A stretch of 64,000 bases of DNA, from contig NZ_AP019829.2 of the NCBI RefSeq assembly GCF_007990545.2, forward strand, positions 434,001 through 498,000. Direction: 5' to 3'. Below, in pieces: positions 7,926 to 20,743 of this stretch. This stretch comes from Leptotrichia wadei (lineage in GTDB: Bacteria > Fusobacteriota > Fusobacteriia > Fusobacteriales > Leptotrichiaceae). The position numbers and the translations under genes are program-made. The notes under the pieces were generated by a model. The model was not told the DNA's origin and searched no databases. It saw only the letters and a program-made list of their open reading frames with translations. Position 1 is the stretch's first letter. Each line of letters opens with the position of its first letter.

Positions 7926-8195
7926 ATGTTAAAATTAAGATTGACTAGATTAGGAAGAAAGAAAGTCCCTTTTTATAGAATAGTAGCTATGGAGGCTTTA
8001 TCTAGAAGAGATGGAAAAGCTGTTGCTTATCTTGGAACTTTTAATCCACTTGTTGAAGATGATAAACAAGTAGTATTAAAGGAAGATGAAATCTTGAAAT
8101 ACTTATCAAATGGAGCACAACCAACTGAAACTGTTAAAAGTATTTTAACAAAAGCTGGAGTTTGGGCTAAATTTCAAGAAACTAAGAAAAAATAG
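7926..8195 (+). CDS. rpsP: 30S ribosomal protein S16
   Basis: Small-subunit protein binding 16S rRNA during assembly. The N-terminus MLKLRLTRLGRKKVPFYRIV is the family signature, followed by AYLGTFNPLVE. The 89 residues are a typical length. A TGGAGG site lies 8 nt upstream of the ATG, with a consensus promoter before it. The usual neighbours (ffh, rimM, trmD, rplS) are absent, so here it is a single-gene unit ending at the hairpin near 8344. Confidence 0.97.
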   Translation: MLKLRLTRLGRKKVPFYRIVAMEALSRRDGKAVAYLGTFNPLVEDDKQVVLKEDEILKYLSNGAQPTETVKSILTKAGVWAKFQETKKK

Positions 8196-8244
8196 TTTGA
8201 AAAATTTTTAAATTATGATTTCTTATTTAGAATAATATATTTTA

Positions 8245-8266
8245 CAGGGGGTGAAACCCCTTGTTA
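8245..8266. repeat. GGGG/CCCC intergenic palindromic repeat (copy 1)
   Basis: The core AGGGGGTGAAACCCCTTG folds into a short GC stem in otherwise very AT-rich DNA. Related copies occur at 17324, 19035, 23003, 30320, 35530 and 44381. It lacks a T-tract, so it is probably a repeat rather than the rpsP terminator. Confidence 0.6.
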
Positions 8267-8343
8267 TTAGTTGTTAAGCAAGTAAACAAAAGAAAGTTTG
8301 TTTCAATTTTTAAATAGAATTTAATATTAATTTTTTATAATAC

Positions 8344-8372
8344 TTGCCTTATTTTTAGGGCAATTTTTTTTT
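8344..8372 (+). terminator. Rho-independent terminator of rpsP
   Basis: TTGCC(T)TA pairs with TAGGGCAA (one mismatch) around a 4-nt T loop, followed by a nine-T run. It lies about 150 nt after the rpsP stop. Confidence 0.65.
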
Positions 8373-8708
8373 GGAAAAAACAATGTTCAAAGACATTATA
8401 AATTTGATACTAACCCCATTTAAATAATGAATATATTATAAATCTTTTTATCAGTTTAAACCTGATATTTATTTTCAAATAATTAAAATAAACCTCTACT
8501 TTTTTTAATGGGAAACGATATAAATTTTGTCGTAATCATTAATAAAATCTATTGTTTTTTTGAAATTTAATTTGAAATATTTAAAAAATATTTATTTTTT
8601 TATCATATTACTAAATATATAATGGTATTTTATATTTAAATAATAAATTTTAAATGAAATATTATTTAAATGAAAATTAGTAGAAAAAAATATAAAAGGA
8701 GTAGAATT
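8373..8708. other. AT-rich leader region before the autotransporter gene
   Basis: No gene seen in this stretch. A TATAAT at 8617-8622 could be the -10 of the autotransporter promoter, but no convincing -35 is present at the right distance. The ribosome-binding site AAGGAG is at 8697-8702. Confidence 0.4.
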
Positions 8709-11700
8709 ATGATAAATAATTTGAGAGTTTTAAAGAAAGAATTGAAGTCTTTTGCAAAAAGAGTGAAGAACTTCAAATATACAGAATCAGCCCTTATAAC
8801 TTTTTTACTAACTGGATTAATCGAACTGACAGGAGTTTCGTTTAATCTTTTTTCGGCTGAAAATGAAATCCAAGCACAGACAAAGGCGATTAATACGTCA
8901 ATAACAAGCATAAAAAGTGATTTTAGGTTTGCAAGGCATGAAAATAACAAATTGCTTAAAAAGACAAACTTAGAATTAGTTAAGTTAATGGAGCAAGGAG
9001 ATCATGTTGTAAAAAGCCCATGGAGCAGCTGGCAATACGGAATAAACGGTTTCTACAACAGCTGGCAAGGTTCATACAAAGGCCGTGGAGACAAAACCGC
9101 CGACTACAAATACGAACGTGACAAAACAATGAGCAAAACCAAATACGAAGCATATCCTCACACTCTTTACGGAAATACAACAGAACTAGGATTAAAGCAA
9201 GAGCCAAATGCCTCAATCCCAGTATCAGCAACACTTAATCCGTTGATACCAAAAGTAAAGCATGCTAATGTATCAATGGCAGTGGATATAAGTGAGTTGC
9301 CTTCATTTAATCCAAGAACGGTTACACCTCCAACAGCTCCGACTATTTCACCTATGAAAGGAATTAATACACCGAGTTTTTCAATGAAATCAAGTTCACT
9401 TTCAAACTGGGGAGAATCACACTTTGATAATGCTAATACTGCTAGTAATGGTGTAATAGAATCAGTTGCTATATTGGGTGGAGATTTTAATGTTGAAAGA
9501 TTAGATCCAGGTTCAGCAAGTAGATGGAAATATAATTATACTGGCTATAGAGTAAAAAATGCATTTAATACAGGTAATATGACATCAGATTACATTATAA
9601 GTGGGATTACCAATATTCTTACTCCTAATTCAGAAATTACTGTACCAAGTAGAACTGTTGCCGCTTCTAATTCTAAATCTGGATTTTTAAGAATGACTAA
9701 TGATAGTCCAGTTAGTCAAGGTTCAACACTATTAAATCAAGCTACATTTACATATACGAATAGCTCTGGAGGAAATTATGTCAGAGAACTAGCTCATTTA
9801 GATATGCATGGAAGTAATTCTTTTTCAACAGAAAGAGGGAAATTATTAGCAATTACAGGATTAAAAGCCTCGGTAGTCCCTAATTTTGATGATGTGAGTA
9901 CAATTGCTCAGAATACAACTGGTTCAACAAAATCACAAACATTTATTAATGCTGGAAAAATAATAATAAAAGGAGATCAGGCCTCTTTTACAAATAGTTA
10001 TGATCATGATTGGGATGATCAAAATAGAGTTGCTAGTGTAATAAATACAGAAGATGGAGAAGTATCAGTTAGTCCTTTAGATCCAAATAATAAAGGTTCT
10101 GCAGTTTTTATAGTTTCACCTGAAATAGATAAAGCTGGAAATCCTCAAATTTTTTATAATGCTGGGAAAATAAATTTATACAGTAAAAAATCGGCAATTT
10201 TCTTTTTGAATCCAAATGGAGATGTCAGATGGAATCATGATGGAAGTTTTCATGAACGTAATTATGAAAATAATAGATTGGGATTACCAGATAATGATCA
10301 AGATGATCCAAGAGAAATAACTATAGTAAACAGAGCAAGAGGAAATAATAAAATAATTTCATATGGTGATGGAAATGTTGGAATATATCTAAAAACAAGT
10401 AAATATATTAAAGTTACAAATCTTGATTTTAGAACACAAAATTTAACAGATTATGTGACTAAAAATGGGACTTGGGCACCTATGATTATGTATGGAGATA
10501 ATAATATAGGATTATATGCTCCTAAAGATACAGAATCTCAATTATTTGTTGGTGACCCAGGACCAATAATAGGTAATTTTGCTGTTAGCATAGGAGATTC
10601 TAATGGAAATTATTTTTTGAATAATAATGATGATGCTTACATTGATAGTTCGTATGGAATTTTTTCATCTGTTAATATTGATTTGTCAAATGATGTAAAA
10701 GATATAAAAAGTGGACATCAAATAACTATAAATAAAAATTCTAAAAATGGTATCGGAGTTTTAACAAGTAATAATGCTGAAATTAAACTTGGAGCAGGGA
10801 AAATTGAATTAAATGGTGGATTTGATAATACTGGAATAGTTATTGGTGGAAGTAAAGCATCTTCAGGTGATGTTAAAGATACAGATGGTTCTGTAATAGG
10901 AGATGTTATATCGATTAACGGAATTTCAAATGCTGATAGAGGAAACAGAGCTATTTATGCTTGGGATGGAAATAATAGAGGAAACAGTGTTGAAGTAAAT
11001 GCTATAAAATCTGAAAACACAATTAATTCAATAGCAATCGTAGCAGAAAAAAATGCAAAAATTACTGTTAATGGTACAGCTTCTTCAAATCCTTCAATAA
11101 TTGGAACAACTGATGGAACAGGTTTTGAATATGGAGTTAAGATTAATGATTCAAAATATGTATATGACCCAAATCGTGTAGTTTCAGCAACTGATGCAAC
11201 TTCTACCGATAATGTTGGAGCTGCTTATGCTAATAATGAAGCTGTGATAACAATTAATAGAACTTCTGTTCCATCAGTAGCAAATGGTCCAAATATTTCT
11301 ATAGAAGGTGGAATTGATACCTATGCTAAGAAAATTATAGGATTTGGGTTATTTGCTGATAATAAAGCTAAAATAAATGCTCAAAATAACTGGATAAAAG
11401 TTACTAATGGAGCAACTAATGTGGCATCATTAAGTAATGCAGAGATTGACTTGAAAGGTGCGACTGTTGAATATAAAGGTGAAGGATATGCACTTTATAC
11501 CAATACTACAAGTAAAAACTCTGGTGCTATTAATATGAGTGATGCTAAATTAGTATTGGATGGAAAAGCTGTTGGATATGTGCATTATCAAGATCAACCT
11601 AATATGATAACAGTTAATCCTAATACAAGTATTGATATACTTGATGATGATGTAATAGTTGCAGATTTAAGAAAAACATCAGGTCAGGTTACTGTAAATG

Positions 11701-14700
11701 TTGAAAATAAAGCCACTCCTGATAGATTAAGAGACCAATTGATTGGTGGAGTTGGAAGTGTTGGAAGTACAAATGGAAAAACTAGATATAAATATGCAGT
11801 TGTGGATAATGCTCAAATTAACATAAAATCAGCTGTTGATAAGGCTGATAATTCAGGTACTGATACAGATAGTGAAGTATTTGCTAAAAGATTCCTGTAT
11901 CAAAACTCTAAGATTGATGTAACTACAGCAGGTTCTGTTAAGGCTGAACTGGATGATACGCAAATGAAGGCGATAGATGTTAATCTTAAAACTCCTGTTG
12001 GTCTTGCAGTAACGGCAAGTGCACAGACAAAGGATAATGATACAACAGGAATTAGCAATAGTGGTACGGTATCGACTGATAAAACGGTTGGATCTGATAG
12101 AGGTGGAATTGGTCTGTATGTAGATTATGGATATATTAATAATAATGCTGCAGGAACTGTAAATGTTGAAAAAGGGACAGTAAATAATCCAAATGACAAG
12201 GCTATTGGGATATTTGGAACAAATAGCACGAAGATAGTTAATGATGGAAAGGTAAATGCTGGAGGTAAAAAATCAATTGGTATTTTAGGACTTTCTTATA
12301 GAATTGACTCGAAAACAGGACTTGCGATAAATCCGGCGGATGAAACATATTATAGTAATGTGATTACAAATAACGGAACTAAATTTGGAACTGTAAATGT
12401 TGAAAATGGTGCAACTGGTAAAATTACCATGGATAATGATGGGGCAGTTGGGATATTTGTAAAAAATAATAGTATTGATAAAAATAGCTTTGGAAATTAT
12501 GTTGTAACAAATCCTTCTGATATAAGAACTAAAAATGATACACGTGGTGTAAATAAAGGTGAAATTACAATTAATGGAAGTAACAGTTCAGTAGGAATAG
12601 GAGCCAATAACGGTATAATTACAAATGCTAGCAGCGGTAAGATTAATGTTAATGGTACTAAGTCGGCAGGAATGTATGGAACGAATGATTCTGATTTGAT
12701 AAATAACGGAGAAATTAATGTTGCGGCGACTTCTGCTGGAAATGAATCTATTGGAATGTATATTGATGATCAGGTTTCAACTATTGCAAATACTGGAAAG
12801 ATTAATGTTGGAAAATCTTCTTATGGAATTTACGGAAAAGATGTCAATATGACTGCTGGTGAGATTAATGTGGCTGATGACGGGGTTGGAGTTTATTCGA
12901 CAGGTCCAAGTGTAAACCTTTCAGGTGGAAAGATTGATGTGGCAAATAATAACTCTGTTGGGGTCTATATTGCAGATGACAGCAAGAATCCGCAAGCGAC
13001 AACAGTTACATCATCTGTTGACATGAAGGTTGGAGATACAGATTCATTTGGATATTTAATAACAGCTTCAAAGGCTAAAACAGACTTAACAATAAATTCA
13101 ACAGCAAATTCTATTCACGTTGGAGAAAAATCAGTATATGTTTATTCTGGAGCGCCACAAAGCCTAGGCGGAAAGGTTATAAATAAATCTGATATTGTAA
13201 TGGATAAGAATAATGGATATGGAATTTATTCTTCACAGGATGCAGAAAATTATGGAAGCATTGATTTGAGAGCAGGTATTGGAAATATTGGGATTTATTC
13301 TACACAGGGAAACGGTAAGAATTTTGGAGTAATTGCAGTAGGTTCAAGTAATGTAACCAGTAAGCAATATGGAATTGGAATGGCAACTGGATATTACAAT
13401 GAAATTACAAAGGTTTCAACAAATGAAGGAACAATAGAAAATTATGGAACAATCAATGTTTCAGATGATAATAGTGTTGGAATATATGCAGTTGGATCTG
13501 GTTCAAAGGCAATTAATAAAGGAACTATTAACTTGAGCGGAAATAATACGACTGGAATGTATATTGACAGATATGCAACTGGGGAAAATTACGGAACTAT
13601 TCAAACAACACCGACTACAAATGGAACGGGAATAAAGGGAGTTGTTGTAGCAAATGGAGGAGTAATTAAAAACTATGGAACAATAAATATTGTTGGAAGT
13701 AAAAATATTGGAGTGTACGCATTCAGAGGAGATGTAACAGATTCAAGTTATGTGCCTTATGAAGCACATGGAACAGGAAATGTTTCAACAAGACCATATT
13801 TAGAAGGAACAGCAACTGACCAAAAAGTAACGGGAAAAGCAATAGTAAAAGTTCCACCTGCATCACTGCCTAGCTCAGTTTCAATTTCAATAGATGGTGT
13901 AGATGTTGCACCAGTAAAAGTTGATACAAATATAGCTTCACCGGAAGCTCCAGAAGTATTGATAACTGACTTGTCTGGAGTAACAAAATTAAATCTGGAA
14001 ACAGAAAAGATGGATCATAATCACACACATTCAAATGGGGAAATATCAACTATTGGAATGTATGTGGATACATCAGGAATAAATTATACAAATCCTATTC
14101 AAGGATTAAATAATTTATCTGGATTGACAGATGTTGACTTAATAATGGGTACAGAAGTTACTAAATATTTAAATGCAAAAGCGATTCAAATTGGAGATAA
14201 TATTTTGAAACCATATAATAATGCATTGGCAAGCGTTGTATCAACAGGAGTTACATTAAATGTAAATTCGGCAAGCTTGACTTGGATAGCACAACCAGTA
14301 GAATCTGGAAATATAGCGGCACCGATAAAAACAGTATATATGGTAAAAATACCGTATACGGATTTTGCAAGTAAAAATGATGTTGATACAGAACACTTCC
14401 TTGATGGGCTTGAACAAAGATACGGAGTTGAAGGTATTCATTCGAGGGAAAAACAAATTTTCAATAAGTTAAATGACTTGGGAAAAGGAGAACCACACAT
14501 ATTTGCACAGGCTGTAAATGAAATGAAAGGTTATGAATACTCAAATACTCAGCAAAGAATAAACGCAACTGGAAATGCATTAGACAAGGAATTCAAATAT
14601 TTATGGAAGGACTGGAGAAATCCATCTAAGCAAAACAACAAGATAAAAGTATTTGGAATGAAGGATGAGTACAAGACTAACACAGCTGGAGTAATAGATT

Positions 14701-15479
14701 ATGATAGCAACGCTTGGGGAGTTGCTTATGTTCACGAAGATGAAAAAGTTCAAATAGGTAAATCAATCGGATGGTATGCAGGAGCAGTTACAAATAGATT
14801 TAAATTTAAAGATCTAGGAAAATCAAGAGAAGATGAGACAATGGTTAAACTTGGAATTTTTAAAACAATGTCACCAAGAAAAGACTATAATGGAGCACTG
14901 CAATGGACAATCGCAGGAGATATTTTTGGTGGAATTAACAACATGTACCGTAAATACTGGGTTGTAGATGATACATTTGAAGCAAAATCTACATATAATT
15001 CTTATGGAGCGGCTTTAAAAAATGAGTTGGGATATGACATAAGAATGAGTGAAAGAACACATTTACGTCCTTACGGAGCATTAAAGATGGAATACGGAAG
15101 ATTTAACGAGATAAAGGAAAACTCTGGACAAATGCGGCTAGAAGTTAAAGGAAACGACTACTTCTCAGTAAAACCTGAAGCAGGACTAGAATTTAAATAT
15201 ATTCAGCCATTGGCAGTAAGAACTCAGTTATCAATAGGATTGACAGCAGCTTATGAAAATGAGATTAGTAAATTGAATAAGTTGAATCAAGCAAGAGTAA
15301 GATATACAACAGCTGACTGGTATAATTTGAGAAATGAAAAGGAAAATAGAAGAGAAAATGGTAAATTCGATCTTAACATTGGTGTAGATAACACAAGATT
15401 TGGTATGACAGTAAATGCCGGATATGACACTAAAGGAAATAATGTTAGAGGAGGAATCGGATTTAGGGCTATTTACTGA
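8709..15479 (+). CDS. Giant type V autotransporter, fusobacterial N-terminal domain type
   Basis: Surface protein of about 2,256 residues. An extended, basic signal region (MINNLRVLKKELKSFAKRVK, then a hydrophobic stretch ITFLLTGLIELTGVSF) is followed by a conserved segment (KSPWSSWQYGINGFYNSWQG) shared by many Leptotrichia and Fusobacterium autotransporters. The passenger is a long beta-helix-like region rich in Asn/Gly/Thr/Ile with recurring units such as NYGTINVSDDNSVGIYA. The last 270 residues or so form the beta-barrel, ending GGIGFRAIY with a terminal aromatic residue. Start 8709 is set by AAGGAG 6 nt upstream; the ATG at 8670 has no such site. Likely roles are adhesion or biofilm, but the sequence does not identify a ligand. 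No catalytic motif is visible. Confidence 0.9.
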   Translation: MINNLRVLKKELKSFAKRVKNFKYTESALITFLLTGLIELTGVSFNLFSAENEIQAQTKAINTSITSIKSDFRFARHENNKLLKKTNLELVKLMEQGDHVVKSPWSSWQYGINGFYNSWQGSYKGRGDKTADYKYERDKTMSKTKYEAYPHTLYGNTTELGLKQEPNASIPVSATLNPLIPKVKHANVSMAVDISELPSFNPRTVTPPTAPTISPMKGINTPSFSMKSSSLSNWGESHFDNANTASNGVIESVAILGGDFNVERLDPGSASRWKYNYTGYRVKNAFNTGNMTSDYIISGITNILTPNSEITVPSRTVAASNSKSGFLRMTNDSPVSQGSTLLNQATFTYTNSSGGNYVRELAHLDMHGSNSFSTERGKLLAITGLKASVVPNFDDVSTIAQNTTGSTKSQTFINAGKIIIKGDQASFTNSYDHDWDDQNRVASVINTEDGEVSVSPLDPNNKGSAVFIVSPEIDKAGNPQIFYNAGKINLYSKKSAIFFLNPNGDVRWNHDGSFHERNYENNRLGLPDNDQDDPREITIVNRARGNNKIISYGDGNVGIYLKTSKYIKVTNLDFRTQNLTDYVTKNGTWAPMIMYGDNNIGLYAPKDTESQLFVGDPGPIIGNFAVSIGDSNGNYFLNNNDDAYIDSSYGIFSSVNIDLSNDVKDIKSGHQITINKNSKNGIGVLTSNNAEIKLGAGKIELNGGFDNTGIVIGGSKASSGDVKDTDGSVIGDVISINGISNADRGNRAIYAWDGNNRGNSVEVNAIKSENTINSIAIVAEKNAKITVNGTASSNPSIIGTTDGTGFEYGVKINDSKYVYDPNRVVSATDATSTDNVGAAYANNEAVITINRTSVPSVANGPNISIEGGIDTYAKKIIGFGLFADNKAKINAQNNWIKVTNGATNVASLSNAEIDLKGATVEYKGEGYALYTNTTSKNSGAINMSDAKLVLDGKAVGYVHYQDQPNMITVNPNTSIDILDDDVIVADLRKTSGQVTVNVENKATPDRLRDQLIGGVGSVGSTNGKTRYKYAVVDNAQINIKSAVDKADNSGTDTDSEVFAKRFLYQNSKIDVTTAGSVKAELDDTQMKAIDVNLKTPVGLAVTASAQTKDNDTTGISNSGTVSTDKTVGSDRGGIGLYVDYGYINNNAAGTVNVEKGTVNNPNDKAIGIFGTNSTKIVNDGKVNAGGKKSIGILGLSYRIDSKTGLAINPADETYYSNVITNNGTKFGTVNVENGATGKITMDNDGAVGIFVKNNSIDKNSFGNYVVTNPSDIRTKNDTRGVNKGEITINGSNSSVGIGANNGIITNASSGKINVNGTKSAGMYGTNDSDLINNGEINVAATSAGNESIGMYIDDQVSTIANTGKINVGKSSYGIYGKDVNMTAGEINVADDGVGVYSTGPSVNLSGGKIDVANNNSVGVYIADDSKNPQATTVTSSVDMKVGDTDSFGYLITASKAKTDLTINSTANSIHVGEKSVYVYSGAPQSLGGKVINKSDIVMDKNNGYGIYSSQDAENYGSIDLRAGIGNIGIYSTQGNGKNFGVIAVGSSNVTSKQYGIGMATGYYNEITKVSTNEGTIENYGTINVSDDNSVGIYAVGSGSKAINKGTINLSGNNTTGMYIDRYATGENYGTIQTTPTTNGTGIKGVVVANGGVIKNYGTINIVGSKNIGVYAFRGDVTDSSYVPYEAHGTGNVSTRPYLEGTATDQKVTGKAIVKVPPASLPSSVSISIDGVDVAPVKVDTNIASPEAPEVLITDLSGVTKLNLETEKMDHNHTHSNGEISTIGMYVDTSGINYTNPIQGLNNLSGLTDVDLIMGTEVTKYLNAKAIQIGDNILKPYNNALASVVSTGVTLNVNSASLTWIAQPVESGNIAAPIKTVYMVKIPYTDFASKNDVDTEHFLDGLEQRYGVEGIHSREKQIFNKLNDLGKGEPHIFAQAVNEMKGYEYSNTQQRINATGNALDKEFKYLWKDWRNPSKQNNKIKVFGMKDEYKTNTAGVIDYDSNAWGVAYVHEDEKVQIGKSIGWYAGAVTNRFKFKDLGKSREDETMVKLGIFKTMSPRKDYNGALQWTIAGDIFGGINNMYRKYWVVDDTFEAKSTYNSYGAALKNELGYDIRMSERTHLRPYGALKMEYGRFNEIKENSGQMRLEVKGNDYFSVKPEAGLEFKYIQPLAVRTQLSIGLTAAYENEISKLNKLNQARVRYTTADWYNLRNEKENRRENGKFDLNIGVDNTRFGMTVNAGYDTKGNNVRGGIGFRAIY

Positions 15480-15854: not shown

Positions 15855-17234
15855 ATGAAAAAAGATAAAATAAAAATAAATGAAATTTTAGAAAAAATTT
15901 TTAATATGAGAACAATTAATAAGAGAATAACAAAGAAATCTTTAAATCAGAATAACGAAAAGCTGAAAAAAATTTATGAATTATTGGGAAAACCTTGTGA
16001 AAATAAGAAAATTATTCATATTGCAGGGACAAATGGAAAAGGATCGACAGCGACATTTTTGGAAAATATTTTTTTTGCAGCTGGATATTCGGTTGCTAAA
16101 TTTACTTCACCGCATATTTTACGATTTAATGAAAGAATTTTGGTAAATAAAGAGATGATTTTAGATGAAGATGTTGTAAAATATTGTGAAGCTGTTATGA
16201 ATGTTCTGAAAGAAAATGGATTGCAGATAAATTTTTTTGAAATAGCAACTTTTGTAGCCTTACTTTATTTTAAAGAAAAAAATCCTGATTTTATATTTTT
16301 AGAAACAGGGCTAGGCGGAAGATACGATGCCACAAACATTGTAAAGTCAACAATAGCAGCTATAACAAATGTAAGTTTTGATCATGTCGCCCTTTTGGGA
16401 AATTCGCTTTATGAAATTGCAGATAGAAAAGCTGGGATTATAAAAAATAGGCAGCTTTGTATTTATGCTCAAAATTTGACTGAACTGGAAGAGGCTGTGA
16501 AAAGAGAAACAGATAATTCGGTAAATGTTTTGGAAAAATATAAAGGTTTTCAAGCTGAATTGGATAATCAAAATTATAAGACAATTGTGAAAATTGTTGA
16601 AAATAAAAATTCCAAAGAATCTGGAAATATTAAAAAGTCTGAAAACATTGAAAAAATTAATAATAATAAAAATAACTTGAAAAAAACATTTATTCTGCCA
16701 CTTTTTGGAAAATTTCAAGCAAATAATTTTTTAATTGCCTATGAGATTGCAAAAATTTATGGAATTAATGATAAAATTATTCAAAAGGGGCTTGATGAAA
16801 TTTCATTGGCTGGACGGTTTGAGATTTTTTCAAAAAATCCTGCAACAATTTTAGATGTTGCTCATAATGATGATTCTGTAAAAGTTTTGACGGAAAATTT
16901 GAACGAACTTTTTAAAGATGATGAAGTGATTTTTGTTCTTTCAGTACTCGGAACAAAGGATATTGCAAATATTTTTAAAAGAATCTTGGAAAAAAATTAT
17001 AAAATTTTCATAACTTCCCTAAAAGAAGTTATTTATGGGCTATCTGCCGAAGAAATAAAGAAAAATCTGGAAGATTCAAATATTTCTACAAAAAATATTA
17101 TTTTTGAAGATGATATTTTACAGGCTTATAATCAGGCAAAGAAAATGATTTTAAAAAATGATAATTCGTATAAGGTGATTGTAGTTTGCGGATCTTTTTA
17201 TGAGATTGCGAAGTTTAAGAAATTGTTTTTGTAA
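15855..17234 (+). CDS. folC: Folylpolyglutamate synthase / dihydrofolate synthase
   Basis: Mur-ligase-type enzyme adding glutamate to (dihydro)folate with ATP. The P-loop IIHIAGTNGKGSTATFLE is near residue 57, KFTSPHILRFNERI follows, and LETGLGGRYDATN gives the central Mur ligase motif. DVAHNDDSVKVL marks the C-terminal domain. Length is 459 residues. A lysine/asparagine/serine-rich insertion around residues 248-276 (NKNSKESGNIKKSENIEK) interrupts the usual spacing and is probably a surface loop. An AAAAGGA site precedes the ATG. The last 80 bp of the gene and the following 110 bp are duplicated about 1.7 kb downstream, on the far side of the next gene. Confidence 0.92.
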   Translation: MKKDKIKINEILEKIFNMRTINKRITKKSLNQNNEKLKKIYELLGKPCENKKIIHIAGTNGKGSTATFLENIFFAAGYSVAKFTSPHILRFNERILVNKEMILDEDVVKYCEAVMNVLKENGLQINFFEIATFVALLYFKEKNPDFIFLETGLGGRYDATNIVKSTIAAITNVSFDHVALLGNSLYEIADRKAGIIKNRQLCIYAQNLTELEEAVKRETDNSVNVLEKYKGFQAELDNQNYKTIVKIVENKNSKESGNIKKSENIEKINNNKNNLKKTFILPLFGKFQANNFLIAYEIAKIYGINDKIIQKGLDEISLAGRFEIFSKNPATILDVAHNDDSVKVLTENLNELFKDDEVIFVLSVLGTKDIANIFKRILEKNYKIFITSLKEVIYGLSAEEIKKNLEDSNISTKNIIFEDDILQAYNQAKKMILKNDNSYKVIVVCGSFYEIAKFKKLFL

Positions 17235-17346
17235 TATTTTTTTCGTAAAATAGTAAAAAAATAAATTATTAGGCAGATTTTTTAACAAATTTGTGGAATA
17301 GAAAATTTTAAATAATATTGTTTAATAGGGGGTTAATGCCCTTTAT
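17154..17346 (+). repeat. Duplicated folC 3' end, copy 1 (within and after folC)
   Basis: About 190 bp covering the last codons of folC, its stop, and the downstream sequence through a GGGG hairpin (AATAGGGGGTTAATGCCC at 17324). It matches 18877-19057 closely; for example ATAATTCGTATAAGGTGATT occurs in both, as does TTTAAATAATATTGTTT. The two copies flank the DKNYY-repeat gene in direct orientation. Confidence 0.85.
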
Positions 17347-17387
17347 GAAAAAATTGAAATAATATATCTAAAATAATCTTATATTAA

Positions 17388-17415
17388 TTGAATTAAAAGG
17401 GAATAAAGATATAAT
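17388..17415 (+). promoter_or_regulatory. Promoter of the DKNYY-repeat gene
   Basis: TTGAAT, 16-nt spacer, TATAAT, about 40 nt before the start codon. It lies between the two copies of the folC-end duplication, so the gene carries its own promoter. Confidence 0.55.
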
Positions 17416-17457
17416 AAACAAATAGTTGATGTCTATAAAAAAAGGAGAAATATGGTT

Positions 17458-18888
17458 ATGAAAAATAAAATTTTTAAAGTACTTATAATCGCAATTTTAT
17501 CAGCAAATGTAGTTTATGCAGAAAGTTCAAGAAAGATAAGAATTAGTGATGTTCCAATGAGTAAAATAGAAGAAGATTATAAGAAATTAGGTGATCGTGA
17601 AGATCTATTTATTAAAGATAAAAATGGGGTTTATAAATATTCTTATGGTGATACGGTACAAAAGCTTAATGGGATAGATCCTAAAACTGTTGAAGTTTTT
17701 AATAAATTTTATTTGAAGGATAAAAATGGAGTTTATTATTTGGATAAAAATAAAATAAAAATTTTAAATTTAGAAGGAATGGATTTAAAAACTCTTGAAG
17801 TAGTTGACAATTCTTATTTAAAAGATAAAAATAGTGTTTATTTAGTTCAAGAAAATAAGTTAAAAAGATTGGAAAAAATAGATCCAAATACTTTTAAAAA
17901 TGTTGGCGGCAATTATGTAAAAGATAAAAATGGAGTTTATAAATATTATTTTACTTATATCACTATTAACGATAAAGAGTTAAAAAAAGAGCCAAATTTT
18001 GATGCTAAAACATTTGAGATAGTTGATCCAGATGGACGCTATGTAAAGGATAAAAATAATGTTTATTGTGATGGAGAAATAATAAATGGTGCAGATCCGG
18101 CGACATTTGAAATGTTAAAAAAAGGGAATATAAATTATACGAAGGATAAAAATAATATCTATTATTGGAAAACTAAAATAGAAGGTGTAGACAGAGATAC
18201 ATTTAAAATAATGGAAAATCCTAACTTTTCAAAAGATAAAAATAATATTTATTTTTTAGGTGAAAAAACAGAGTCTGAATCTTATCCACCTGAATATGAA
18301 AAAAAAGGAAATGATGTTTATTATAAAAATAAAAAATTAAAAGATATAGATGCCAATACATTTGAAACAATGATTTCGTTTTTTGGTTTTAAGGATAAAA
18401 ATGGATATTATGTTTTAGACAGGGATGGAAGTGTAGTAAAAATAAATGATAAGGAAGTGAAAATTAAAAATCTTGCTAAAAGTTCTTTTAATAGCAATTT
18501 TTTTTACGATGGTAAAAACTTATACTTCATAAAAAATCATAAATTTGAAAAAATAAAAAAAGCACCTAAAACTGATGGAATAAGTGAAATAAGTGATAGA
18601 TATGTAGAAATTGGAAAAGTTTACTATTTAGATTATGATAAAGGTGAATTGATAAAATTAGAAAAAAATGATGGACGTGGAGTTTTTTTTGCTCTTGGTG
18701 AAGATTATGGAAAAGATTTTAATTTGAATGCGGAAGGTGTAGAAACTACTAGAAGATATATCTATTTTAAAGGTAGAATCTTGAAAAATGCTGATTACGA
18801 CAGCTTTGGAATAAAATATAATGATCAAAAAAATGTATTTGAAATAAGAGATAAAAATAGAGTTTATGAAACATTGAAAAATGAATAA
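17458..18888 (+). CDS. Secreted DKNYY-repeat protein
   Basis: A signal peptide (MKNKIFKVLIIAILSANVVYA) precedes about 450 residues built from repeats of the form KDKNGVYY-x(n)-DPKTFEV, for instance KDKNGVYKYSYGDTV, KDKNGVYYLDKNKIK and KDKNNIYYWKTKIEG. At least ten copies are visible, degenerating at the C-terminus. This matches the DKNYY family, whose molecular role is unknown; beta-propeller-like or surface-exposed repeats are plausible. AAGGAG lies 10 nt before ATG 17458; ATG 17452 is also possible. The gene is bracketed by a direct duplication of the folC 3' end, suggesting insertion or segmental duplication. Confidence 0.75.
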   Translation: MKNKIFKVLIIAILSANVVYAESSRKIRISDVPMSKIEEDYKKLGDREDLFIKDKNGVYKYSYGDTVQKLNGIDPKTVEVFNKFYLKDKNGVYYLDKNKIKILNLEGMDLKTLEVVDNSYLKDKNSVYLVQENKLKRLEKIDPNTFKNVGGNYVKDKNGVYKYYFTYITINDKELKKEPNFDAKTFEIVDPDGRYVKDKNNVYCDGEIINGADPATFEMLKKGNINYTKDKNNIYYWKTKIEGVDRDTFKIMENPNFSKDKNNIYFLGEKTESESYPPEYEKKGNDVYYKNKKLKDIDANTFETMISFFGFKDKNGYYVLDRDGSVVKINDKEVKIKNLAKSSFNSNFFYDGKNLYFIKNHKFEKIKKAPKTDGISEISDRYVEIGKVYYLDYDKGELIKLEKNDGRGVFFALGEDYGKDFNLNAEGVETTRRYIYFKGRILKNADYDSFGIKYNDQKNVFEIRDKNRVYETLKNE

Positions 18889-19057
18889 TTCGTATAAGGT
18901 GATTGTAGTTTATAGATCTTTTTATGAAATTGCGAAATTTAAGAAATTTTTTTGTGATATTTTTGCATAAAATAAGCTATTAGGTAGATTTTTTAGTAAA
19001 TTTATGGAATAGTTTATTTTAAATAATATTGTTTGATAAGGGGTTAATGCCCCTTAT
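18877..19057 (+). repeat. Duplicated folC 3' end, copy 2
   Basis: Direct repeat of 17154-17346. Here the folC-derived codons are out of context, beginning at the stop codon of the DKNYY gene, and the copy ends with a cleaner hairpin (ATAAGGGGTTAATGCCCC at 19036). Scattered substitutions and small indels separate the copies, so the duplication is not recent. Confidence 0.85.
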
Positions 19058-19239
19058 TTTTAAATAAATTAAAAAAATTTAATAAAAATATTATCTCTCT
19101 TTTATTTTTGAAAAAATATGTTATACTTATAATAGGGAAAATGTATTTTGATAATAAAAGTTTAATACTAAATCTTGCTTGGTAATCATAAATTTTAGTA
19201 GCTAGAAAGAACAGATTATAAGTTAAAAAAGAGGGAAAT

Positions 19240-19842
19240 ATGGAAAAATATGTTATGTTCAGAGGAAAAGTTGTAGATAAGTGGTATGATTTTGACAAAA
19301 GAGCTCATTATCATATTGTGGCTGTGGATAAAAATGGGAAAAAGTATGATTTGGCAGTTAATATCGGGAGTATTTATGAGAAAAAAAATGAAATTATTTC
19401 TTCAAATTTGAAGGTTTATTACAGGAAAAATTATTTTTGTGAAGGAAGTGTAATTTCTAAAATGTTATTACAAAAATCTGGAATTACAGAATGTGATAGA
19501 GATTTATGTTTAGATTATGTTAGAATGAAATTATTTCCGCATAATAAAATGATACAGATGAAAGGATTTGATGAAGAGCACATATATTTAACAGGAATTA
19601 TTGAAAAATATGTGGAAAAGGCTAAGAATAATGAGAATTATGAAGTATTTGCATTTGGGAGACTTTATGCTAATGGAAAAGGATTGCATGATATTCATTT
19701 AAATCAGGGGAGTATAAATAAATTTAGAAAAAATGATGCTAGGTATTCTGATGGAGGATTATTTTTTAGAAATAGACAAAGTAATAGGATTATAGCCATA
19801 TTTATTGCATTTGTTACTCAAAGTTTAGATGAAAGCTTGTAA
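19240..19842 (+). CDS. YukJ-like DUF2278 family protein
   Basis: A 200-residue cytoplasmic protein with no signal peptide. Its blocks match my recollection of DUF2278: an N-terminal FRGKVVDKWYDFDKRAHYHI, LCLDYVRMKLF in the middle, and a C-terminal half with GLHDIHLNQGS, DGGLFFRNRQ and IIAIFIAFVTQSL. The biochemical role of this family is not established. AGAGGG lies just upstream of the ATG. It precedes a DUF4240-type gene by 20 nt on the same strand and probably shares its transcript. Confidence 0.7.
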   Translation: MEKYVMFRGKVVDKWYDFDKRAHYHIVAVDKNGKKYDLAVNIGSIYEKKNEIISSNLKVYYRKNYFCEGSVISKMLLQKSGITECDRDLCLDYVRMKLFPHNKMIQMKGFDEEHIYLTGIIEKYVEKAKNNENYEVFAFGRLYANGKGLHDIHLNQGSINKFRKNDARYSDGGLFFRNRQSNRIIAIFIAFVTQSLDESL

Positions 19843-19862
19843 AAAGAGGAGTATGATAAAAA

Positions 19863-20525
19863 ATGTCTATACAAATAAAAAAAACTAACGAAACGAAACT
19901 TAAAATGAAAAGGGAAAACTTCTGGAAATATATTTTAATTTCGCATGAAAAGGCTAAAAATAATAATGAATTTATAGATTATTTGATAGATATTCTATCT
20001 AAAAAAACAGATGAAGAGATTTTTGATTTTGAAATAATTACTTTTGAATTAATGCGGGAAAGCTATAATGAAAAATTATGGTGTGCTTCGTATCTTGTGA
20101 ATGGTGACACTGCGAGCTGGAGCTTTGATTTTTTCAGACTTTGGCTTATTTCACAAGGGGAACAGATATTTTATTCAATTATGAGAAATCAGGATAATTT
20201 ATCAGAATATATAAATGTATCATTTGAAACAAAGTTAATGACAAATTATTTTGAAAATGAAAATTTTGCTTTCATTTCAGCTTATGCCTTTACTAGAAAA
20301 AATGATTCGTATAATATTTTAAAAAAGGAAAATTGTAAAATCAATGATAAAACCATTTTCAGAGATGATTTTATTGACAGTTATAATAGAAAATTAAATG
20401 AATATAAAAGAAGAATAGGCTACATAAATAAAGAATATCCAAAAATAACCTTTCATTGGTGTACACAATTTCCTGACAGTATGAAAGAAGTTTGTCCAAC
20501 TTTATTTAAAAAAATGTATTTTTAA
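19863..20525 (+). CDS. DUF4240 domain protein
   Basis: A 220-residue soluble protein. Residues about 15-105 fit the DUF4240 pattern: MKRENFWKYI, a helical stretch with DFEIITFELMRESYNEKLW, then CASYLVNGDTASWSF and FRLWLISQGEQIFY. The C-terminal half is not recognised. DUF4240 proteins are common near immunity and repeat-protein genes, but their activity is unknown. A GAGGAG site lies 11 nt before the ATG. It is the second gene of a probable pair with the DUF2278-like gene. Confidence 0.7.
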   Translation: MSIQIKKTNETKLKMKRENFWKYILISHEKAKNNNEFIDYLIDILSKKTDEEIFDFEIITFELMRESYNEKLWCASYLVNGDTASWSFDFFRLWLISQGEQIFYSIMRNQDNLSEYINVSFETKLMTNYFENENFAFISAYAFTRKNDSYNILKKENCKINDKTIFRDDFIDSYNRKLNEYKRRIGYINKEYPKITFHWCTQFPDSMKEVCPTLFKKMYF

Positions 20526-20682
20526 TTAATATTTAGCAAGGAATTTTTTATCCTTTATTTTCAAAAAATATAAGTTTAAGAAGAAAATTTTTATTTAAAT
20601 TTTTTAAAATTCAATTTTAATTATTTTGGAAATAAATTTTTAAAAATATTGTTAAAAAAATAACAAAAATTTTTCTTAAAGG

Positions 20683-20711
20683 TTGAAATATTGACAAATA
20701 TGTTTTAAAAT
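20683..20711 (+). promoter_or_regulatory. Promoter of the ECF transporter operon
   Basis: TTGAAA, 17-nt spacer, TAAAAT, ending 32 nt before the S-component start. A TTGACA at 20691 overlaps but has only a poor -10 partner. I see no recognisable riboswitch between promoter and start; the leader is too short for one. Confidence 0.5.
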
Positions 20712-20743
20712 ATATGTAAATAAATTTTTAAGGAGGCAGAAAA

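Follow-up and report, generated by a model that had tools for sequence, protein, structure and literature searches.

The repeated folC end behind a DKNYY-repeat gene of Leptotrichia wadei is probably the stump of a second folC

In the oral bacterium Leptotrichia wadei, a gene for a secreted DKNYY-repeat protein lies between two copies of the folC 3′ end. Our analysis favors, with a probability of about 60%, the view that the copy behind this gene (copy B) is what remains of a second folC. A DKNYY-folC unit would have undergone tandem duplication, or entered through a single crossover, and its spare parts would then have been lost differently in each lineage. Both repeats are present in the L. 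wadei genome under study (G000), the closest relative compared (G012) has an empty site, and another genome (G007) retains a DKNYY relic in front of folC. The processes involved are already known, and the locus is no new kind of system. The window, i.e., the whole 64-kb stretch of DNA that was analyzed, is C1:434001-498000 of G000; coordinates without a contig name refer to the window, and all window features given below lie on the plus strand.

The two folC ends and the gene between them

The intact folC (15855-17234; folylpolyglutamate/dihydrofolate synthase, PF02875 and PF08245) ends within copy A of the direct repeat (17161-17346), which consists of the folC tail, the 3′ flank, and a terminator hairpin without a U-run. 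Copy B (18885-19057) consists of frameshifted tail codons, the flank, and a complete terminator. The copies are 82% identical over about 196 columns (MAFFT, blastn; E = 3.9e-50) and contain about 23 folC codons (NSYKVIVV..SFYEIAKFKKxF), the stop region, about 95 nt of flank, and a GGGGTTAATGCCCC hairpin. The first-pass annotation had placed this repetition around the DKNYY gene at 17154-19057. Its coordinates were right, and we can add that copy B begins right at the stop codon of DKNYY (bases 18886-18888), leaving zero spacer. Copy B reads NNSYKVIVVYRSFYEIAKFKKFFCDIFA followed by a stop, i.e., the folC tail; as this frame is short of one base near its end, the copy is a frameshifted relic. 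A and B are the sole two sites of the repeat across the 2.34-Mb genome. With no third copy, we rejected the reading of the repeat as a dispersed element. Neither this outcome nor the lack of an empty site (see below), which the first-pass annotation had named as contrary to its view, came about.

The gene between the repeats (17452-18888) encodes a 478-aa protein with a signal-peptide-like N terminus. It matches PF13644 in five stretches (E = 1e-55), and its 188 bits are above the curated cut-off of 25. Its nearest paralogue (G000:C1:291931-293040, 49% identity) is the secreted DKNYY gene conserved in the genus. The window gene thus resembles the family in its five matches and in having this conserved secreted paralogue, and differs from the latter by additional N-terminal repeats and by its place at folC rather than at the conserved C1:291.9 kb locus. 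It is intact in one of 33 Leptotrichiaceae genomes, G000 alone. The leader in front of it (17347-17451) carries a promoter-like TATAAT and an RBS; the part that begins at the RBS shares 81% identity with the leader of the core paralogue. The shuffle test gave no convincing similarity between this leader and the DNA right of copy B. An extension of the repeat to the right of the hairpin was also unconvincing, its score being reached by 10 to 127 of 500 shuffles, depending on the test.

Phage records contained no match to the DKNYY protein, and two plasmids matched it at only about 26% identity; with the former absent and the latter weak, a mobile origin of the gene was rejected. The AlphaFold2 model (mean pLDDT 69) is a beta-rich repeat of moderate confidence. 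Its comparison with the PDB gave TM-scores below 0.2, uninformative on function, and a literature search on DKNYY found no functional study.

Dozens of matches to the DKNYY family occur in each Leptotrichia genome, against none in 14 control genomes. In G000, long DKNYY-repeat genes form clusters at C1:850000-855000, 984400-986100, and 1192100-1196300. GGGG hairpins in general are common in G000. A 114-nt inverted-repeat, MITE-like element with a central GGGG/CCCC hairpin has about 35 matches there, including G000:C1:291692-291803; one copy lies directly 5′ of the conserved DKNYY gene, and two matches (852374 and 854471) fall inside a DKNYY cluster. Copies A and B have no significant match to this family, whereas the folC terminator of G007 does match it (E = 4e-4).

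An empty site in one relative and a mirror relic in another

An empty site with one repeat copy had been predicted for related strains, and G012, whose folC is 95.6% identical to that of G000 at the nucleotide level, has one. There, folC stands alone and DKNYY is absent. A single repeat copy, 98% identical to A over 186 nt, joins directly to the sequence found right of B in G000, and the DUF2278 gene follows. In the window, this original right flank with the promoter region of the DUF2278 gene spans 19058-19239, with 94% identity to G012 (there 3′ of the single A-type copy) and 88% to G007. The DUF2278 gene itself (19240-19842, PF10042) is the conserved right neighbor. G012 looks like the product of recombination through the repeats. 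Its single copy would be ancestral if B was imported; otherwise it reflects a secondary loss. As to the idea that the repeats could excise or amplify the gene at present, the longest perfect match that A and B now share is 27 nt (ATAATTCGTATAAGGTGATTGTAGTTT).

The order in G007 is rpsP, a DKNYY relic, folC, and DUF2278, with folC in single copy (89.3% nucleotide identity to G000 folC). The relic comprises 90 nt of the DKNYY 3′ end, stop codon included, and ends about 20 nt 5′ of the folC start. Its identity to the window's DKNYY gene is 89%, as against 71 to 76% for the core paralogues of the genus. This relic shows that a DKNYY gene was formerly located immediately before a folC. Copy B would then be the remnant of that folC, joined to DKNYY through a short microhomology. 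A search of the DNA upstream of folC in G000 and G012, a place now taken by an adhesin gene, gave no similarity to DKNYY. Among 13 genomes of the genus, one per species, none keeps an intact DKNYY-folC or folC-DKNYY-folC arrangement.

The favored course of events would begin with an ancestor in which DKNYY stood directly in front of folC, as the G007 relic still indicates. The DKNYY-folC-terminator unit would have been duplicated in tandem, or a single-crossover insertion through folC would have taken place, giving the order folC-DKNYY-folC-DUF2278, with the joint of the duplication at the folC terminator hairpin. In G000, the downstream folC body may then have been deleted through the short microhomology where DKNYY ends, so that a folC tail and a complete terminator were left. 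G007 would have lost most of DKNYY. In G012, DKNYY would be gone and one folC end left, as recombination between two folC ends would leave. We infer the duplication step together with its direction and order. Some points speak against it. A full tandem copy is expected to leave a relic of the first DKNYY upstream of folC, and none is present in G000 or G012, although such a relic may have disappeared entirely. Intact intermediates are absent from the relatives compared, and a DKNYY-folC segment taken up from another strain would lead to almost the same arrangement.

Breakpoints, age of the copies, and rival origins

The terminators of the two copies differ. In copy B, the hairpin is perfect and a U-run comes after it (fold z −3.4), copy A has a hairpin without a subsequent U-run (z −1.9), and the single copy of G012 has both hairpin and U-run. 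The right breakpoint of the repeat is therefore placed inside the terminator by the difference between A and B. The hairpin and U-run of copy B probably now terminate the DKNYY transcript, judging from the folds. At the other end of copy B, the junction with DKNYY bears the microhomology AAAAATGA/ATAA, and the DKNYY end GAAAAATGAATAATTCG is nearly identical to AAAAAATGATAATTCG in the folC tail. Such near-identity at the joint is as expected if the downstream folC body was lost through illegitimate recombination, and it is from this that we infer the deletion step.

The two copies also appear to be old. Across the full repeat, A and G012 differ at 3 positions, A and B at about 20. At sites 29 and 44 of the folC tail, B agrees with the outgroup species and with G007, and A and G012 have a derived base in common; at site 53, B alone of the four (A, B, G012, and G007) has the outgroup base. 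Since B keeps outgroup or G007 bases where A and G012 share derived ones, the A/B split, on these few sites, predates the split between G000 and G012. The private changes of copy B are those at sites 28 and 30 and the lost base. About half of the 18% divergence between A and B consists of outgroup or G007 states retained in B, on which ground we rejected a recent copy with fast or chance decay. Where comparable, G007 sides with B as often as with A at the A/B differences, parts of the flank aligning poorly. At site 16, A, B, and G012 stand together against G007; hence the duplication could postdate the G007 split, and G007 would then simply be DKNYY-folC. The repeat being only about 170 nt long, its phylogeny is weak.

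The main rival is an import. A DKNYY-folC segment from a related strain would have entered by natural transformation, with homologous joining right of folC and illegitimate joining at the folC terminator hairpin, and the redundant incoming folC would later have been deleted. The import and the duplication share the central claim, in which B represents the remains of a second folC. An 18% divergence between the copies, given the 98% identity of A to G012, suits an imported B, as does a DKNYY gene intact in one genome only. Replacement has also occurred nearby. The block 19543-20742 (the C-terminal half of DUF2278 and the DUF4240 gene) is 85 to 93% identical to G012, compared with about 96 to 97% downstream, and is no closer to G012 than to G007; this lost affinity points to replacement by homologous recombination. 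However, the stretch 18968-19342 on the right side of the repeat has kept its similarity to G012 (27 and 25 sites vs. 3 and 8), so an import would have to end near the hairpin, and no donor with an intact DKNYY-folC is known. Taken together, we consider an import rather unlikely.

A gene 3′ end duplicated around one passenger gene, with an empty site in a relative, is also seen with integrative elements at gene 3′ ends (genomic islands at tRNA or protein gene ends). A small mobile unit would have inserted site-specifically into the folC 3′ end, restored the gene end, and left a target-site copy in attL/attR style; the empty site in G012 is, however, not exclusive to this explanation. The first-pass annotation had reported that no integrase is present, and our search for tyrosine recombinases agrees: none lies in the 64-kb window, the nearest in the genome being about 91 kb off. 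In contrast to such elements, the locus has no fixed core site, and neither a spacer nor an element end separates the stop codon of the passenger gene from copy B. The age and decay of the repeats speak against such an insertion, it leaves the mirror relic of G007 unexplained, and DKNYY has only the distant plasmid matches and no phage matches described above. We therefore hold site-specific insertion to be very unlikely indeed. Of the two origins offered previously, the other one, tandem duplication with later replacement, fits, if the lost part is the second folC body, the G007 relic, the position of B at the DKNYY stop codon, and the divergence of the copies; site-specific insertion explains none of the three.

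Duplication followed by partial loss has a described counterpart in tandem duplication-random loss (TDRL), known for mitochondrial gene order (e.g., PMC2576254). There, a block is duplicated and different parts are lost in each lineage, leaving relics and a changed order, here DKNYY-folC vs. folC-DKNYY. As in TDRL, two copies occur at one locus with one of them partly lost (folC and the folC tail relic flanking DKNYY), and relatives show complementary losses and a changed order (DKNYY relic-folC in G007, folC only in G012). The present case differs in lying on a bacterial chromosome, and in that the intact duplicated state was not seen in the 13 genus genomes, nor a relic of the first DKNYY upstream of folC in G000 or G012. 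It would be a compact bacterial case of gene order altered via duplication and partial loss, with the relic probably reused as a terminator. A direct repeat of a gene end that resembles an integration scar can thus be the stump of a lost duplicate, recognized here only through the mirror relic kept by a relative, which warns against calling attachment sites from a single genome.

Plasticity of the rpsP-folC-DUF2278 region

The ancestral order of the genus is rpsP-folC, with DUF2278 downstream of folC in 9 of 13 genomes. The ancestral left neighbor rpsP (ribosomal protein S16; 7926-8195, an 89-aa ORF) lies directly 5′ of folC in most Leptotrichia genomes. In the window, a large autotransporter-like adhesin gene (8670-15479, a 2269-aa ORF) separates the two. 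A 71% identical homologue stands at the same place in G012, and the adhesin is absent from that place in G007 and the other species. G012 also has a TnpB-like fragment between rpsP and the adhesin. On the other side of folC, the content of the folC-DUF2278 interval differs from species to species; in G002, it holds remnants of IS3-family transposases twice and a Rep3 plasmid initiator gene, and this insert is apparently integrated plasmid DNA, going by its gene content. The region is plastic, by several routes.

The G002 insert, which indicates that plasmid DNA has entered this interval, lends some substance to a Campbell-type insertion in G000. A circular plasmid carrying DKNYY and folC sequence would, through a single crossover in folC, give the same folC-DKNYY-folC product. 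Such an event is nevertheless very unlikely, as no plasmid gene lies near the DKNYY unit in G000, and no plasmid record has a close DKNYY or a Leptotrichia folC. A wider generalization can be framed, in which the folC-DUF2278 interval is a recurrent insertion hotspot, folC-end repeats gain and lose envelope-protein genes by homologous recombination with no dedicated recombinase, and the presence of DKNYY varies within the population; we give it only a slim chance.

The G002 interval has some further structure of its own. Within G002:C1:1069000-1083000, two IS3-type transposase C-terminal fragments of 175 nt, 92% identical to each other, occur in the stretch 8211-12203. Each fragment is followed by an ORF starting MLK(N/H)SLNFWGHS and then by a second ORF. 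The Rep3 plasmid initiator gene comes after these units, and the repeats upstream of it may be iterons.
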